This document shows, piece after piece, positions 5,484-62,816 of a stretch of DNA of 64,000 nucleotides (within the stretch, counting starts at the first letter, position 1; every line of letters begins with the position of its first letter). Under the pieces are notes generated by a model, which searched no databases, was not told the DNA's origin, and saw only the letters and a program-made list of their open reading frames with translations. A program made the translations under genes and the position numbers. The stretch comes from Candidatus Aminicenantes bacterium. GTDB lineage: Bacteria; Acidobacteriota; Aminicenantia; Aminicenantales; UBA4085. The DNA is taken from assembly GCA_026393855.1 (NCBI GenBank), contig JAPKZJ010000022.1, positions 1 through 64,000 on the forward strand. Reading direction: 5' to 3'.

Positions 5484-8282
5484 ATGCCCCTCATCCGTCA
5501 TCTCGTCTCCCGCCGATACTCCCGGGTGGTCTTTATTTCATCGGCCGTCCTTCTGGCGGCCTGGTTTTCTATCGCGCTCGCGGCCGAAATCGCTCCCCCG
5601 ATGGCGGCAGCCGAGCCCGGCGGTAACATCCGGGCCGTCGATCTCCGCTGTCAAGGCGCCGTGGAGCCGATCGGCATCGACGCCCCCTTGCCGAGCCTGT
5701 CCTGGAAGATCGCGGGAGACGGACGCGGCCTGCGCCAAACCGCCTATCGGATCCAGGCCGCCTCGCGGCACGAGATGCTGGCGGCGGACCGGCCGGACCT
5801 CTGGGACAGCGGCAGAGTCGACTCGGGTGATACCGTCGGCATCGCCTATGCCGGCTGGCCTCTCGCCTCCTTCAAACGGGCGGCCTGGCGAGTCCGGGTC
5901 TGGGACCAGGACGGCCGGGAATCGTCTTGGAGCGAATCGGCCGGCTGGGCGATGGGCATCCTGCGACCCGGGGAATGGCGGGCCGTCTGGATCGGCGCCC
6001 TACCGGATAGAACCCCGCCCGCCCCCACTCGCCTGCTGCGCCGGGAGTTCGCCGTCCGGGCTCCTCTCGTCCGGGCCGACATGTTCGTCTGCGGGCTGGG
6101 TTTCTACGAAGCCACGATCAACGGCCGCCGGGTCGGGGAGTATCTTTTCTCTCCCGGTTGGACCAAATATGACAAGACCTGCCTCTACGATACCTATGAC
6201 GTGACCGCCTTGGTGCGTCCCGGCGCGAACGCCATCGGGATTCTATTGGGCAACGGCTTCTACAACGTCACCGGCGGCCGCTACACCAAGTTCAAGGGCA
6301 CGTTCGGCCCGCTCAAGGCCGTCGCCCTGCTGCGGCTGGAATATGCCAATGGCGCGGTCGATTTCGTCGGCAGCAACGGATCCTGGCGGACGGCACCCGG
6401 CCCGATCACCTTCTCCTGCGTATACGGCGGGGAGGATTACGACGCCCGGCTCGTCCCGCGCGGATTCGACGAGCCCGGCTTCCGCGACACGGCCTGGTCC
6501 GCGGCCGCCGTCCTGCCCGGGCCCGGCGGCGCGTTGCGCGGTTCCGCCGCCGCCGCGCCTGCCATCCGGGCCATTGAGACGCTCCATCCGGTGGGGACCC
6601 GGGCCCTGCGCCCCGGTGTGGAAGTCTATGACCTCGGCCAAAACGTCTCCCTCATGCCCCGACTTGTCGTCCGAGGGCCGGCTGGATCGTCGGTGCGGAT
6701 CATTCCGGCCGAGCTCCTGGCCGCGGACGGATCGGTCGATCGCGGGTCGGTCGGCGGCGGGGAGGCCTACTGGCAATACACCTTGAACGGGGCGGGAACG
6801 GAAACGTACGTCCCCAAGTTCTTCTACCACGGTTCCCGTTATCTGCAAGTCGAACGGACGCCGGCCGAGCCGGGCGGCAAACAGCCTGTGATCGTCTCGC
6901 TGGAGGGAATCGTCGTCCACTCTTCGGCCGCGCCGGCCGGCGAGTTCGCCTGCTCCTCGGACCTCTTCAACCGGATCCGGACGCTCATCCGCTGGGCCCA
7001 GCGCTCGAACCTGATGAGTCTCGTCACGGACTGCCCGCACCGCGAAAAGCTGGGCTGGCTCGAGCAATATCACCTCAACGGGCCGTCCCTGCGCTTCGAG
7101 TGGGATCTGTCCCGGCTTTTCGCCAAGACCATGATCGACATGGCCGACTCCCAGCTTCCGGACGGACTGGTTCCCGACATCGCCCCCGAATACACGGTCT
7201 TCAGGGGCGGGTTCCGCGACTCGCCGGAATGGGGCAGCGCCTTCGTCCTCGTGCCCTGGCAGCAGTATGAATGGACCGGCGATCCCGATCTCCTGCGGCG
7301 TTATTACAACGGGATGAAGCGCTATGTCGACTACCTGTCGACCAAGGCCGTGGACGGCATCGTTTCGCACGGCCTGGGCGACTGGTACGACATCGGGCCC
7401 AAGCCGCCCGGCGAGGCGCAGCTTACGCCCAAGGCGCTGACCGCGACCGCCTTCCATTACGCCGACACACTGATCCTGGCCAAGGCGGCCGAAATCCTGG
7501 GCCGGCCCGAGGAAGCGCGGGCGTTCGCCGCCCGGGCCGAGGCCGTCAAGGCCGCCTTCAACGCCCGCTTCTTCAATGCGGCCGCCGGAGTCTACGCCTC
7601 CGGATCGCAAGCCTCCCAGTCCATCGCCCTGGTCATGGGGCTCGTCCCGCCCGGGCGGGAAGCGGCCGTGCTGGAGGCCCTGGTCAAGGACGTGCGGTCG
7701 CGCGGCGACGCCCTGACTGCGGGCGACGTGGGGTTCCGGTACCTTCTGCGGGCCCTGGCCGACGGCGGCCGTTCGGATGTCGTCTACGATATGAACAGCC
7801 GCTCGGACAAGCCCGGCTACGGCTTTCAGCTCAAGGCCGGAGCCACCAGCCTGACCGAAGCCTGGGACGCGGGCCGGGCCTCGTCCCAAAACCACTTCAT
7901 GCTCGGCCACATCATCGAGTGGTTTTACCGCGACGTGGCCGGGATCGGCGGCGATCCGGAGGGCCCCGGCTTCAAGAAAATCCTCATTCGGCCTCAACCC
8001 GTCGGCGGACTGACCTGGGCCCGGGCCGCGATCGAGACGGTCCGGGGCCGGATCGAAACGGAATGGCGGATCGAGGGGAAGCGCTTCCGGCTGGCGCTGA
8101 CGGTTCCGCCGAATACGAGCGCCGCGGTGGAGTGGCCCGGACACGCGTCCGGCCCGGTTCTGGAGGGCGGCCGGCCGGCGTTGGAAAGCGCCGGCGTCTC
8201 GGGCGTGACGGCGACGGCATCTGGCCGGACCATCATCCGCATCGGCTCGGGGCGCTACGTATTTGAATCTGCTTGGGAATAA
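5484..8282 (+). CDS. Secreted alpha-L-rhamnosidase, GH78 family
   Basis: The 932-residue product releases terminal alpha-L-rhamnose from glycans or glycosides outside the cytoplasm. ATG 5484 follows AGGAGG at 5473 and begins a basic-hydrophobic signal peptide ending near ALAAE; an in-frame ATG at 5343 is upstream of this and rejected. The domain order is that of GH78: N-terminal beta domains (VRADMFVCGLGFYEATINGRRVG motif region), a catalytic (alpha/alpha)6 barrel beginning near TDCPHREKLGW at about 515, EWGSAF at about 582, the GATSLTEAWDAG motif near 790, and a C-terminal beta domain. The length fits the family. A neighbouring divergent esterase may remove acyl groups from the same substrate, which is inference. 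Confidence 0.9.
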   Translation: MPLIRHLVSRRYSRVVFISSAVLLAAWFSIALAAEIAPPMAAAEPGGNIRAVDLRCQGAVEPIGIDAPLPSLSWKIAGDGRGLRQTAYRIQAASRHEMLAADRPDLWDSGRVDSGDTVGIAYAGWPLASFKRAAWRVRVWDQDGRESSWSESAGWAMGILRPGEWRAVWIGALPDRTPPAPTRLLRREFAVRAPLVRADMFVCGLGFYEATINGRRVGEYLFSPGWTKYDKTCLYDTYDVTALVRPGANAIGILLGNGFYNVTGGRYTKFKGTFGPLKAVALLRLEYANGAVDFVGSNGSWRTAPGPITFSCVYGGEDYDARLVPRGFDEPGFRDTAWSAAAVLPGPGGALRGSAAAAPAIRAIETLHPVGTRALRPGVEVYDLGQNVSLMPRLVVRGPAGSSVRIIPAELLAADGSVDRGSVGGGEAYWQYTLNGAGTETYVPKFFYHGSRYLQVERTPAEPGGKQPVIVSLEGIVVHSSAAPAGEFACSSDLFNRIRTLIRWAQRSNLMSLVTDCPHREKLGWLEQYHLNGPSLRFEWDLSRLFAKTMIDMADSQLPDGLVPDIAPEYTVFRGGFRDSPEWGSAFVLVPWQQYEWTGDPDLLRRYYNGMKRYVDYLSTKAVDGIVSHGLGDWYDIGPKPPGEAQLTPKALTATAFHYADTLILAKAAEILGRPEEARAFAARAEAVKAAFNARFFNAAAGVYASGSQASQSIALVMGLVPPGREAAVLEALVKDVRSRGDALTAGDVGFRYLLRALADGGRSDVVYDMNSRSDKPGYGFQLKAGATSLTEAWDAGRASSQNHFMLGHIIEWFYRDVAGIGGDPEGPGFKKILIRPQPVGGLTWARAAIETVRGRIETEWRIEGKRFRLALTVPPNTSAAVEWPGHASGPVLEGGRPALESAGVSGVTATASGRTIIRIGSGRYVFESAWE

Positions 8283-32900: not shown

Positions 32901-32944
32901 ACGTTGGAGGGGGAACCACTCAAAGGTTCCCCCTCCAAGGGAGT
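32901..32944 (+). repeat. Long hairpin repeat, copy 1
   Basis: TTGGAGGGGGAACC and GGTTCCCCCTCCAA form a perfect 14-bp stem with a seven-base loop. A second copy with one mismatch is at 40281-40320. Here it lies immediately upstream of the -10 box of the methyltransferase promoter. A smaller GC hairpin (GCGCCGGCC/GGCCGGTGC) lies just before it. Confidence 0.75.
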
Positions 32945-32951
32945 CCAGTGA

Positions 32952-39336: not shown

Positions 39337-40014
39337 TTATTCGGGTCGACGGGCCAGAAGCGCGTCGGCCCGGCCGTCCAATTCGCGCAGGATTCGCTCC
39401 ACGCGCAGCCGTTCGCTTTCCAGAGCCTCACCTTCGATTCCGCGGGGAATCTCGATCGGCTCACCGAATAAAGCCACGGCCCGGGAGAACAGGCGGGGAA
39501 CCTCGAAGCGGTCCCAGCTGCGGAAGACTTTTTTCCTCGAGGCCCCGAGCGTGTAGGGAACGAGAAGCGCCCCGGTCTCGGCCCCCAGCTTGACGGCGCC
39601 GAGCTTCAGCTCCCGGTCGGGGCCGCGCGGCCCATCCGGAACGATCAGGACCTCGCCGCCCGCCGCGAGCTCCCGCATCATGATCACCCAGGCCCGCTTC
39701 ATTGAATGGGAGCCCGAGCCGCGGATGACTTTGTAGCCCCAATTGTCGATGAGCCTGGCGATCAGCTCGCCGTCCTGGGACGGGCTGACGAGGGGCATGA
39801 TGTTGCGGCGGCGGAACATCCAAGGGGCGCTGAAGATCTTGCCGTGCCAAACCAGAATGACGACCGGCCGACCGGCCCGGCGCAGGTCGCGATAGGCGGA
39901 TTCGCCCTCAACCCGCAGGCGGAGGGTCTTCATCCAGGCGGACATGAGCGGCCGGCCCAGGAAATCGATGGCCGCCTGCTCGAGCTTTTTGCGGAAAGGC
40001 ATGGCGGATTTCAT
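39337..40014 (-). CDS. Lysophospholipid acyltransferase-like protein (DUF374)
   Basis: The 225-residue protein has VILVWHGKIFSAPWM, an HGK/HxxxxD-like active-site region, PLVSPSQDGELIARLIDNWGYKVIRGS and VLIVPDGPRGPDRELKLGAVKLG, the pattern of DUF374 acyltransferases that act on lipid A or related lipids. ATG 40014 is used; an ATG at 40068 would start inside repeat copy A. No convincing ribosome site is present. It is downstream of the symporter gene on the same strand but separated by repeats. Confidence 0.78.
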   Translation of the reverse strand: MKSAMPFRKKLEQAAIDFLGRPLMSAWMKTLRLRVEGESAYRDLRRAGRPVVILVWHGKIFSAPWMFRRRNIMPLVSPSQDGELIARLIDNWGYKVIRGSGSHSMKRAWVIMMRELAAGGEVLIVPDGPRGPDRELKLGAVKLGAETGALLVPYTLGASRKKVFRSWDRFEVPRLFSRAVALFGEPIEIPRGIEGEALESERLRVERILRELDGRADALLARRPE

Positions 40015-40045
40015 GCTATGCGAAACGGCGTACCGAGTCAAAGAA

Positions 40046-40192
40046 GGGCTCGGGGTATGAGGGGCCAAACACGCTCGCTCCCCCAGCGAGGGAACTCGCT
40101 CTGCCGACTCGGTCGCTCCCCTCGCCTTTCGGCGAGGGACCGTGCCCGCTCCCTCGTCGATCGGTTTGACCCCTCAAACCCCTCGCCCCGGT
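40046..40192 (+). repeat. Structured dispersed element, copy A (~147 bp)
   Basis: This matches copy B (62564-62709) along its length. Outer arms GAGGGGCCAAAC (40059-40070) and GTTTGACCCCTC (to 40175) pair, with one mismatch. Inside are hairpins CTCGCT/AGCGAG (40074-40090) and CCCTCGCC/GGCGAGGG (40118-40138). Differences from copy B are largely paired, so the fold is kept. No protein is likely to be coded, though both copies give short frames rich in Arg and Ser on the minus strand. Confidence 0.8.
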
Positions 40193-40280
40193 CTAAGGCC
40201 TTTTCGGAAACGATAAAATTGCATTCATGGGAAAAGGCTACCATGAAGGGGAGGCAGGACGACGGCTATAGGCCGGAGGA

Positions 40281-40320
40281 CGTTGGAGGGGGAACCCTGC
40301 AAAGGTTCCACCTCCAAGGG
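40281..40320 (+). repeat. Long hairpin repeat, copy 2
   Basis: TTGGAGGGGGAACC pairs with GGTTCCACCTCCAA (13 of 14) around CTGCAAA, matching copy 1 at 32901-32944. Another hairpin CCCTAAGC/GCTTAGGG follows at about 40342-40361, inside the end of the symporter gene region. Confidence 0.72.
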
Positions 40321-40349
40321 AGGCCGGTCGCTCCCTCGCCGACCCTAAG

Positions 40350-41771
40350 CTATCGCTTAGGGCTGCAAAGCCCGTGGGTTTGGCCCCCAATCGCCCTCGC
40401 CCTTTGATCCAAAGCAGAGCCAAAAGCGAATCCCGCCAAGCTCAATCCCAGGCCGTAAGGCAGCGAAAAGGGCCAGGCGGGAATGGGCAACGGCAACACG
40501 CCCGAAGTCGACAGGAAAGAAAGAACCGCGAAGCCGCCGCCCAACCCCAAGCTCAAGAGGCCGGCCCACGGCCGACGGCGCACCGAGAGGATCATCGCCA
40601 ATCCCGGGACGAAGAAACCCTCAGCCAGTATCTCCGACGCCAATCCGATCGTCTTGAGGATACTCTGAAAACGGGTGGCTACCGCAAACGCCGCCGCAGC
40701 GGCCAGAATAAGCGCGGCTCGGCTCGCGAGAGCACCCCTTTCCGGCCGTTCGGCCGCCTTCCGGCCGAAGACGTCCCGAGCAATGGCCAGACCGCCGGCA
40801 TTGAGGGCCGTGTCGAGAGTGGACATCACGGCCGCCAGAACAGCGGCAAACAGCAAACTCCCGAGCCACGGCCCGAGCTTGTCCGCGATCATGGCGGGGA
40901 AAAGGGATCCCTCGGGCACCCGCCCTCCGAACAGCGGCCGGGCCAGCCCCCCTATCAGGACGACCAGGACATAGAGAACGGCCAAAGCCGCCGCCGAAGC
41001 CGCCAACCCTCCCCGCGCCGCCGTGCCGCTCCGCGCAGCCTGAATGCGCTGGTGCGCGATAGGCGAGATCGTCCAGGCCAGGGTGAACGAAAGGAAGATC
41101 AGGCCGCTCTGCGGGAATCCGGCCAGCAGGCCGGGGCCACCGGTAATCGCGCCGAGCACGGCCGAGCTGCCCCCGGCCTTGCCCGCCAAAAAGACGACCA
41201 AGCCCGACAGGCCGACGGCCAGCAGCGCGCATTGGATGATATCGGTGGCGACGACGGACCGCAGCCCGCCGGCCAAGCTGTAAATGAGCACGACCGCCGT
41301 CCCGAGCGCCAGGCACTCGAGATAGGGGCGCTTCATGAACACGCCCAAAAACCGTCCCATGGCGACCATCTGCGAAGCAGCCAGCAAGATCATGTACCAG
41401 ATGAGCAGGCCCGAGGCAATGGACCGGACCACGCGCCCGTAGCGCATCCCCGCCAGTTCGGGGAGGGACAAGGCCGGCAGGCGGCGAAGCGGGCCGGCCA
41501 GCGCAAATAGGATCAAAATCGAGGCTACGGCCGGGAGCCCGACCAGCCATAGGGCCCCAAGACCGGTGCGGAAGGCGTCGTCCGTCGAGACCAGGATCGA
41601 AGCCGCCCCGAACCAGGAAGCGGTCAGCGACAGCGCTACAAGAGTCCCCGGCAGGCGGCGCGAAGCCAGAAAGAAGTCCTCGAAGCCCTTCATCCGGCGC
41701 CTGGCGGTCAAACCGATAACGAGGACGATGGCGAAATAGGAAGCCAGGGCGATCAGCAATCCGGGGCGCAT
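40350..41771 (-). CDS. Sodium:solute symporter family protein
   Basis: The 473-residue protein has about 13 membrane helices of the SSF family. Typical segments are DFFLASRRLPGTLVALSLTASWFGAAS split in helices 1-2, the GGLRSVVATDIIQC loop and MSTLDTALNAGGLAIARDVF. The likely cargo is not readable; sugars, amino acids or carboxylates are all possible. The last ~17 residues are encoded in sequence shared with the repeat near 62731, so the C-terminus may have been set by repeat insertion. It is divergent from the lolA promoter. Confidence 0.88.
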   Translation of the reverse strand: MRPGLLIALASYFAIVLVIGLTARRRMKGFEDFFLASRRLPGTLVALSLTASWFGAASILVSTDDAFRTGLGALWLVGLPAVASILILFALAGPLRRLPALSLPELAGMRYGRVVRSIASGLLIWYMILLAASQMVAMGRFLGVFMKRPYLECLALGTAVVLIYSLAGGLRSVVATDIIQCALLAVGLSGLVVFLAGKAGGSSAVLGAITGGPGLLAGFPQSGLIFLSFTLAWTISPIAHQRIQAARSGTAARGGLAASAAALAVLYVLVVLIGGLARPLFGGRVPEGSLFPAMIADKLGPWLGSLLFAAVLAAVMSTLDTALNAGGLAIARDVFGRKAAERPERGALASRAALILAAAAAFAVATRFQSILKTIGLASEILAEGFFVPGLAMILSVRRRPWAGLLSLGLGGGFAVLSFLSTSGVLPLPIPAWPFSLPYGLGLSLAGFAFGSALDQRARAIGGQTHGLCSPKR

Positions 41772-52015: not shown

Positions 52016-52036
52016 GAGGGGGAATAAACCCGCTCG

Positions 52037-52126
52037 ATCCCCCGGGCTTTTAGCCCGGGGGATTAACAGGGTTAATACTGAGCGGCGCTTTAGCCCCCGA
52101 TTTGAAAATCGGGGTTCGAGCGCCGC
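52037..52126 (+). promoter_or_regulatory. Two strong hairpins in the merR leader
   Basis: A perfect 12-bp stem with a three-base loop spans 52037-52063 (ATCCCCCGGGCT paired with AGCCCGGGGGAT). A nested hairpin spans 52082-52126, with outer GCGGCGCT/AGCGCCGC and inner CCCCGATTT/AAATCGGGG. Both lie in the 5' leader between the MerR promoter and the gene. They may control mRNA or be inserted repeats. Confidence 0.7.
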
Positions 52127-52146
52127 GAACGTATCGAGGTGAGCTC

Positions 52147-62161: not shown

Positions 62162-62505
62162 TGGTGGAGGCGGCGGGAATCGAACCCGCGTCCGAAAACA
62201 TTCCGCAAGACGCCTCTACGTGCTTTTCCTCGTCTTTGTTCTCGCCGCGCGGGACCCGGCGAGGAAGGGTCCGCGAAGCCAGCCCCTATTGATTCGCTCG
62301 CTCGGCTCGGGGCTCGCCAAGTCCGCTATCCTGCTGGTCGGCGCTCCAGCGGCCCCGCAGGCGAGAGCCGAAGGAACGGCATGCCTAAAGCTTAGGCAGC
62401 GAGGGGTAGTGTTTCTGCACTTCTTAGGTCCACCGTTTAACGAGAGAGATGGGATCTCGGCATGCAGCGTCAGCTTCACTGTCTCCGTCGAATCCGTTCG
62501 CCCCC
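62162..62505 (-). ncRNA. ssrA: tmRNA (ssrA)
   Basis: The 344-base RNA has the 5' end GGGGGCGAACGGATTCGACG and the 3' tRNA-like end with T arm GCGGG-TTCGATT-CCCGC, acceptor CGCCTCC and ACCA, which pairs with GGGGGCG. The mRNA-like part has resume codon GCA preceded by AAGU; it codes AETLPLAA and stops at UAA. That stop lies in the stem GCCTAA/TTTAGGC, as in helix 5 of other tmRNAs. With the charged Ala the tag would be A-AETLPLAA. It rescues stalled ribosomes with SmpB. Confidence 0.94.
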
Positions 62506-62524: not shown

Positions 62525-62553
62525 AGTATAGGGTGGAAGGAAGAGGAAGTCAA
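62525..62553 (-). promoter_or_regulatory. Sigma70 promoter of tmRNA
   Basis: On the minus strand -35 TTGACT (62553-62548), a 17-nt spacer and -10 TATACT (62530-62525). The start is about 12-15 bases before the mature 5' end. It probably also reads into the amidase-GerMN-der genes. Confidence 0.78.
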
Positions 62554-62563
62554 ACGGGAAGGG

Positions 62564-62709
62564 GGGCTCGGGGTATGGAGGGTCAAAACACGCTCGCGCG
62601 CCCAGCGAGCGCGCTCGCTCCGCCGACTCGGTCGCTCCCCCTGCTCCGCAGGGGACCGTGCTCGCTCCTTCGTCGATTGGTTTTGACCCTCCAAACCCAT
62701 CGCCCGAGC
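62564..62709 (+). repeat. Structured dispersed element, copy B (~146 bp)
   Basis: This matches copy A at 40046-40192 in the same orientation. Outer arms GGAGGGTCAAAAC (62577-62589) and GTTTTGACCCTCC (62680-62692) pair perfectly. Inside are GCTCGC/GCGAGC (62592-62610) and CCCCTGC/GCAGGGG (62638-62654). A-rich sequence follows (TTTTTAAAAAAAA). It is between the ssrA promoter and the LarA-like gene. Confidence 0.8.
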
Positions 62710-62816
62710 TTTTTAAAAAAAATTTCCAATGGTTTCGGCCCCCCATTGCCCTCGCCCCCCGTATTGAACTTCAAAAGGCAACAAAACCAAATCCAAAGCG
62801 AAAGCAAAAAACCGTT
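62710..62816 (+). other. A-rich and repeat-related leader of the LarA-like gene
   Basis: GGTTTCGGCCCCCCATTGCC at 62731 continues to 62757 and resembles 40377-40402, which is inside the end of the symporter gene. The rest is A-rich without family signal. Confidence 0.55.

Follow-up and report, generated by a model that had tools for sequence, protein, structure and literature searches.

A dispersed element that folds as a three-way junction on one strand in uncultured bacteria of many phyla

ERIC, bcr1 and other large palindromic MITEs are imperfect palindromes of about 130–155 bp that lie dispersed between genes and are confined to narrow taxa. The attC sites of integrons act as folded single-stranded DNA, each a single hairpin whose structure is conserved while its stem sequence varies, and of which one strand is active. 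The HEARO or omega RNAs of IscB and TnpB (Rfam) are structured, occur in many copies and in several phyla, and include copies without an ORF; REPINs are intergenic, multi-copy repeats that fold as single strands and carry compensatory changes (PMC3116915).

Here we describe an element with a unit of about 140–200 nt, two copies of which lie in the window (the whole 64,000-nt stretch of Candidatus Aminicenantes DNA that was analyzed). With the REPIN and REP sequences associated with RAYT (PMC3116915, PMC2817692), it shares a short, intergenic, dispersed, multi-copy and non-autonomous character, a hairpin formed by the single strand, and compensatory changes, but it has no palindromic symmetry, forms a three-way junction with conserved loops, spans some 140–200 nt, occurs in many element-rich genomes that have no RAYT, and has a core conserved across phyla. 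HEARO and omega RNAs resemble it in being structured, multi-copy, spread over phyla and ORF-less in some copies, but the element has neither an Rfam match nor a linked ORF, and a TnpB zinc ribbon is present in 1 of 20 genomes. Conserved structure, variable stems and a favored strand are common to the element and attC; where attC is a single hairpin, however, the element forms a three-way junction; it brings no cassettes, and shows no attC boxes by eye. We know of no such conserved junction core in MITEs of the ERIC or bcr1 type, from which the element is set apart here by description rather than by sequence. As in MITEs, the dispersed, short, ORF-less copies have terminal inverted repeats (the P1 arms), and as in structured RNAs a covarying fold was found on one strand. 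The family is absent from Rfam (no relevant family in release 15 at gathering or permissive thresholds), and the defining features of REPIN/RAYT systems failed where tested. Literature searches on repeats or structured RNAs in Omnitrophica and Parcubacteria returned nothing relevant.

An earlier note, made from the letters alone, had reported two similar copies of a structured element in the window whose differences tend to be matched on the opposite arm. Both copies are present where it placed them and are 83% identical in a BLAST-level comparison, and the quoted arm pairs can be read in them: GAGGGG/CCCCTC against GGAGGG/CCCTCC in the outer stem, and CCCTCGCC/GGCGAGGG against CCCCTGC/GCAGGGG in the inner hairpin. 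The location given for the copies holds, with the spans (40046–40192 and 62564–62709) now trimmed to precise P1 ends at 40188 and 62705 (Table 1). To that description the present analysis adds the minus-strand fold, the tandem G.A pairs of the junction, the invariant loops and a family that extends across phyla.

Table 1. Coordinates of the element copies in the window, their parts and adjoining features
Feature	Position	Strand	Remark
Element copy A	40046..40188	minus (predicted functional strand)	P1 end to P1 end; covariance-model match 40031-40202
Element copy B	62564..62705	minus	directly upstream of tmRNA promoter; covariance-model match 62549-62719
Copy A P1 5' arm (GGGC-GA-GGGG...TCAAAC)	40164..40188	minus	partner 40046-40070
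Copy A P1 3' arm (GTTTGGCCCC...CCCC-GA-GCCC)	40046..40070	minus	
Copy A P2 5' strand CGAC-GA-GG-GA-GC	40148..40159	minus	two tandem G.A sites
Copy A P2 3' strand GC-GA-CC-GA-GTCG	40105..40116	minus	
Copy A core motif GAGCGGGCACGG	40140..40151	minus	cross-phylum consensus GAGCGGGCAYGG
Copy A P3, hypervariable apical hairpin CCCTCGCC-GAAA-GGCGAGGG	40119..40138	minus	
Copy A P4 hairpin	40073..40099	minus	conserved loop TCGCTGG at 40083-40089
Promoter-like TTGACT-N17-TAGCAT	40013..40041	minus	abuts copy A 3' end
Promoter-like TTGACT-N17-TATACT of tmRNA gene (62162-62505)	62525..62553	minus	just past copy B 3' end
Second repeat family (B), then partial right half of A-type element	40225..40404		adjoins copy A

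A BLAST search of the window's own assembly (3.68 Mb in 144 contigs) with copy A as query found 20 places, 13 of which we took as full-length copies, the rest being halves, tandem pieces and composites with a second repeat family. This second dispersed family (GGCTACCATGAGGGGGTGGCAGG...GTTGGAGGGGGAACC-loop-GGTTCCCCCTCCAAGGGAGTCC) occurs at 40225–40320 and 32902–32946 of the window and at many other loci (L028, L035–L050), and is often joined straight to the Y-shaped element or, in some cases, sits in its middle. A third repeat (GGGGGAATAAACCCGCTCGATCCCCCGGGC...GAGCGGCGC...) is found at 52023–52135, with more than 30 further matches in the related genome G002.

On the minus strand of the window the element folds as a three-way junction, in which a closing stem P1 (23 pairs) leads to an arm P2 (8 pairs) capped by the hairpin P3 (8 pairs) and to a second hairpin, P4 (8 pairs). 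We defined the structure on this strand because many of the plus-strand mismatches are TC.TC and read, on the minus strand, as tandem G.A pairs in a 5'-CGAG-3' context. Four such tandem sites lie in the junction, two of them within P2; G.A is kept at the P2 sites in 13 and 8 of the 13 full-length copies and at the P1 and P4 sites in 11. RNAalifold applied to the 13 aligned copies gave 45 pairs, 30 of them with double changes. P4 is 100% paired across these copies while its sequence ranges from CTCCC/GGGAG to AAACC/GGTTT, and P3 changes wholly in both sequence and length from copy to copy. Two unpaired motifs are kept across phyla, GAGCGGGCAYGG in the P2/P3 region and TCGCYGG in the P4 loop.

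Single copies fold more stably than dinucleotide shuffles on both strands (z −3.6 to −6.0), and the named strand is stabler than its complement in 154 of 155 non-redundant copies with RNA parameters (mean −12.4 kcal/mol) and in 152 of 155 with DNA parameters. In the paired columns G.U outnumbers A.C (170 versus 53) and G.A outnumbers C.T (229 versus 15). Taken with the stability asymmetry, these biases indicate that one particular single strand folds. G.U makes up only about 4% of paired cells, a share lower than we would expect of RNA helices; the folding strand may be RNA or single-stranded DNA.

Several variants of this architecture were seen. In five copies from one Aminicenantes MAG (L157, L160, L185, L193 and L247) the closing stem runs about 20 bp further outward, with extensions that differ among the copies and pair inside each. 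The same P1 ends (GGGCGAGGGG/CCCCGAGCCC) enclose another interior core (GCCGAAACGGCGCAAAAATTTCCGCC) in L127 (1044–1293), L128 (999–1249) and G002 (contig C122, near 5548–5667). The element ends of six Omnitrophota loci (L149, L174, L195, L219, L223 and L246), TTAGCGGGT/ACCCGCTAA, turn up again as CACCCGCTA within the hairpin P3 of several copies, which gives the impression that the element carries one of its ends inside itself. Two known motifs were considered and rejected: an HDV-like ribozyme, of which GGCAUGG and CCUCGCUGG in the element are reminiscent, differs in order, spacing and pairing and gave no match in Rfam, and a kink-turn does not fit G.A sites that are symmetric (2x2), with the 3-nt bulge absent.

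That the fold rather than the sequence is kept, as the earlier note had proposed, is strongly supported both within the window's own genome and across phyla, the stems varying by matched substitutions. In a MAFFT alignment of the 13 full-length copies of that genome, 96.1% of the pair cells hold a pair (80.7% after shuffling), and 88 cells hold double changes against 23.5 in shuffles, a count that none of 500 shuffles reached. Sliding the 3' partners by 1–3 columns leaves 8–13 double-change cells, and double changes far outnumber one-sided intermediates. Among the cross-phylum loci all 47 of 47 pairs have double changes, in 1786 cells against 522 when shuffled and 205–289 when slid; this alignment was fitted to the covariance model and so leans towards structure, but the size of the gap makes an artifact unlikely.

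The earlier note had also suggested collecting copies from the genome and its relatives with a covariance model. Such a model (R1), trained on the 13 own-genome copies only, gave 29 matches in that genome at a threshold of E ≤ 0.001, a number that includes some weak hits on the reverse strand of places already matched. Within the window's family it matched 8 of 12 genomes (27 in G001, 12 in G007 and 10 in G002, some rows being weak reverse-strand duplicates), with no match in any of the four genomes of genus g3. The few copies and lack of covariation that the note had named as counting against it were thus not what emerged, given these 29 matches and the 88 double-change cells against 23.5.

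Beyond the family, a scan of one-genome-per-species assemblies with the conserved-core pattern, for which we estimate about one chance match, found at least 117 further stretches in genomes of about 10 uncultured phyla, and R1 matches 98 of 100 of the cross-phylum pattern loci (best E 7e-24). Among the matches listed, the hosts are uncultured and include Omnitrophota, Aminicenantes, Patescibacteria lineages, Auribacterota, WOR-3, Deltaproteobacteria, Acidobacteriota and Bipolaricaulota, among others; binning error is possible in single MAGs, such as one labelled Clostridiales. A retrained model (R2), used for per-genome counts, gave 1–58 matches per genome in 39 element-bearing genomes of many phyla, including small ones, with 7 matches in 0.5 Mb and 15 in 0.8 Mb. 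Of 149 genomes sampled in the window's own phylum and screened with stricter filters, only 4 carry the element, which is thus sporadically distributed but dense in the genomes that have it. Acidobacteriota bacterium STD1_136 (L153) bears the same copy as G002. No match to the element was obtained in IMG/VR or in the phage, plasmid and viral collections.

Several comparisons bear on whether copies move. Copies at different loci align at about 90% identity over some 180–200 nt and then stop (for example L148/L154, L187/L228 and L223/L246). At the tmRNA locus of G002 both flanking genes are present, 143 nt separate them instead of 286, and the element is absent, in an alignment of the empty site that is not base-precise; on the tmRNA side in G001 no copy was seen. 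Five sites are common to species (copy A/G002, L008/L084, L009/L120, L007/L108 and L015/L122), and each holds very different elements or elements of different subtypes. The L008 and L084 elements, for example, are 57% identical within flanks that are about 81% identical, and at the copy A site G002 has an element of another type, which shares the P1 ends but, as in L127 and L128, differs in its interior. Such sites imply that elements were either inserted repeatedly at one spot or replaced by conversion. Inspection by eye of the flanks of a few near-identical copy pairs revealed no target-site duplication.

We also looked for a mobilizing partner. Y1_Tnp is present in 22 of 39 element-bearing genomes and absent from 17, among them genomes with 34, 29, 18, 17 and 15 copies; MAG incompleteness weakens each single absence of an enzyme, but not the overall pattern. 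Reverse transcriptase (RVT_1) occurs in 5 of 20 element-bearing genomes and a TnpB zinc-ribbon match in 1 of 20, so that both were rejected as partners, being mostly absent. Between inverted copy pairs (L067, L093 and L074) a transposase was sought, and only ordinary genes or mechanical ORFs were found. No protein family recurs beside the element at the 117 loci. Separately, the Y1 transposase genes at L252–L257 have inverted flanking ends of their own (for example AATAGGGGTACAGTATACGTAATTCCCTATTT in G000).

Among the alternatives, it is very improbable that the paired changes arose by palindrome correction at the DNA level, or gene conversion between arms, without selection on the fold. Such correction would account for the great excess of double changes over one-sided intermediates, but it would erase the conserved tandem G.A mismatches (G.A 229 versus C.T 15) and predicts no strand preference, yet 154 of 155 copies fold better as the named strand. 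A role as transcription terminator or insulator, in which a GC-rich stem and pyrimidine tail upstream of promoters would stop read-through, finds support in the window's family, where copy B abuts the tmRNA promoter, the sigma70 −35 box TTGAC lies within 35 nt of the element's 3' end in 15 of 67 copies (1 of 66 mirrored) and sigma70-like sites occur there in 17 of 67 (3 of 66 mirrored). In other phyla, however, the association vanishes (TTGAC 3/95 versus 1/94 mirrored; sigma70-like 10/95 versus 7/94), and we therefore regard it as a local habit rather than a core function and reject a promoter or terminator role as the general one. The U-tract is absent, and a terminator has no need of the conserved junction and loops, which makes this explanation improbable. 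Movement of a REPIN/REP-type element by RAYT, a Y1 HUH transposase, is unlikely as well and has already been largely refuted. It would fit the likeness to REPINs, which are also intergenic, multi-copy, single-strand folding and rich in compensatory changes (PMC3116915), and the Y1_Tnp genes in 10 of 12 genomes of the window's family. Yet Y1_Tnp is missing from 17 of 39 genomes, copy-rich ones included (the assemblies are incomplete), and from G001 (76% complete) with its 27 matches. The 10 family RAYT loci gave no credible match to the element model, their genes being flanked by unrelated ends of their own, and REPINs are symmetric doublets, whereas the element's fold is strand-asymmetric (154/155).

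The main rival to a mobile repeat is a multi-copy structured noncoding RNA, or a mobile element encoding one, whose transcript is the functional product; we consider it possible but on balance doubtful. Transcripts of every copy, read from the named strand, would fold into the three-way junction and be bound at their conserved loops by a protein or a second RNA, a proposal that we hold just as tentatively. The strand-specific fold (154/155), the single-stranded motifs kept across phyla with the tandem G.A pairs, covariation in every stem (47/47 pairs) and the retention of sites in related species all speak for such an RNA. Against it, up to 58 copies and a sporadic distribution are unusual for a host RNA, G.U makes up only about 4% of paired cells, no conserved promoter was found upstream of the element, and there are no fixed neighbors or orientation: relative to adjacent genes (mechanical ORF calls) 27 elements are in the same direction, 35 opposite, 20 divergent and 9 convergent, which follows no rule. 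Of the options that the earlier note had offered (MITE-like element, REP-type site or structured RNA), a mobile repeat is favored because of the dispersal, the patchiness and the near-identical copies in unrelated flanks, whereas a RAYT-dependent REP is disfavored. Numerous copies in different intergenic places, sporadic among related genomes, support mobility, as do the absence of copy B from its orthologous site in G002 and the lack of shared neighbors, of an orientation rule and of viral, phage or plasmid matches; against it stand the patchy candidate mobilizers (Y1 22/39, RT 5/20, TnpB 1/20), the lack of a visible target-site duplication in the few pairs inspected by eye and the null result for replication-strand bias judged by local GC skew. 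The sites common to species could also reflect a function tied to the site, combined with gene conversion, instead of insertion. Nearly all full copies retain the fold, which would not be expected to such an extent if they were dead transposon copies.

Our best reading is thus an element that behaves like a REPIN or MITE but is strand-asymmetric and not tied to RAYT transposases; that it belongs to a new family of non-autonomous mobile repeats recognized as a folded single strand we judge about evenly balanced. A protein or ribonucleoprotein acting in trans would recognize the folded strand, as single-stranded DNA or RNA, through the conserved core, and the recognized strand would be copied to new intergenic sites, so that selection would act on the fold of copies still able to move. 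More tentatively, the family may represent a new class of mobile element of uncultured bacteria, with a conserved three-way-junction single strand (RNA or single-stranded DNA) and undescribed machinery unrelated to RAYT, RT or TnpB/IscB, that crosses phyla and includes Patescibacteria.

What is strongly supported is a structured element that reaches 58 copies per genome, occurs in many uncultured phyla and is found neither in Rfam nor in the literature searched. Its conserved core and freely varying stems offer a handle for finding the binding partner, and the covariance model makes the mobile-element and host-RNA readings testable. Mobility would point to a route of transposition, as yet undescribed, in organisms with reduced genomes; as a host RNA, the element would constitute a widespread new RNA class.
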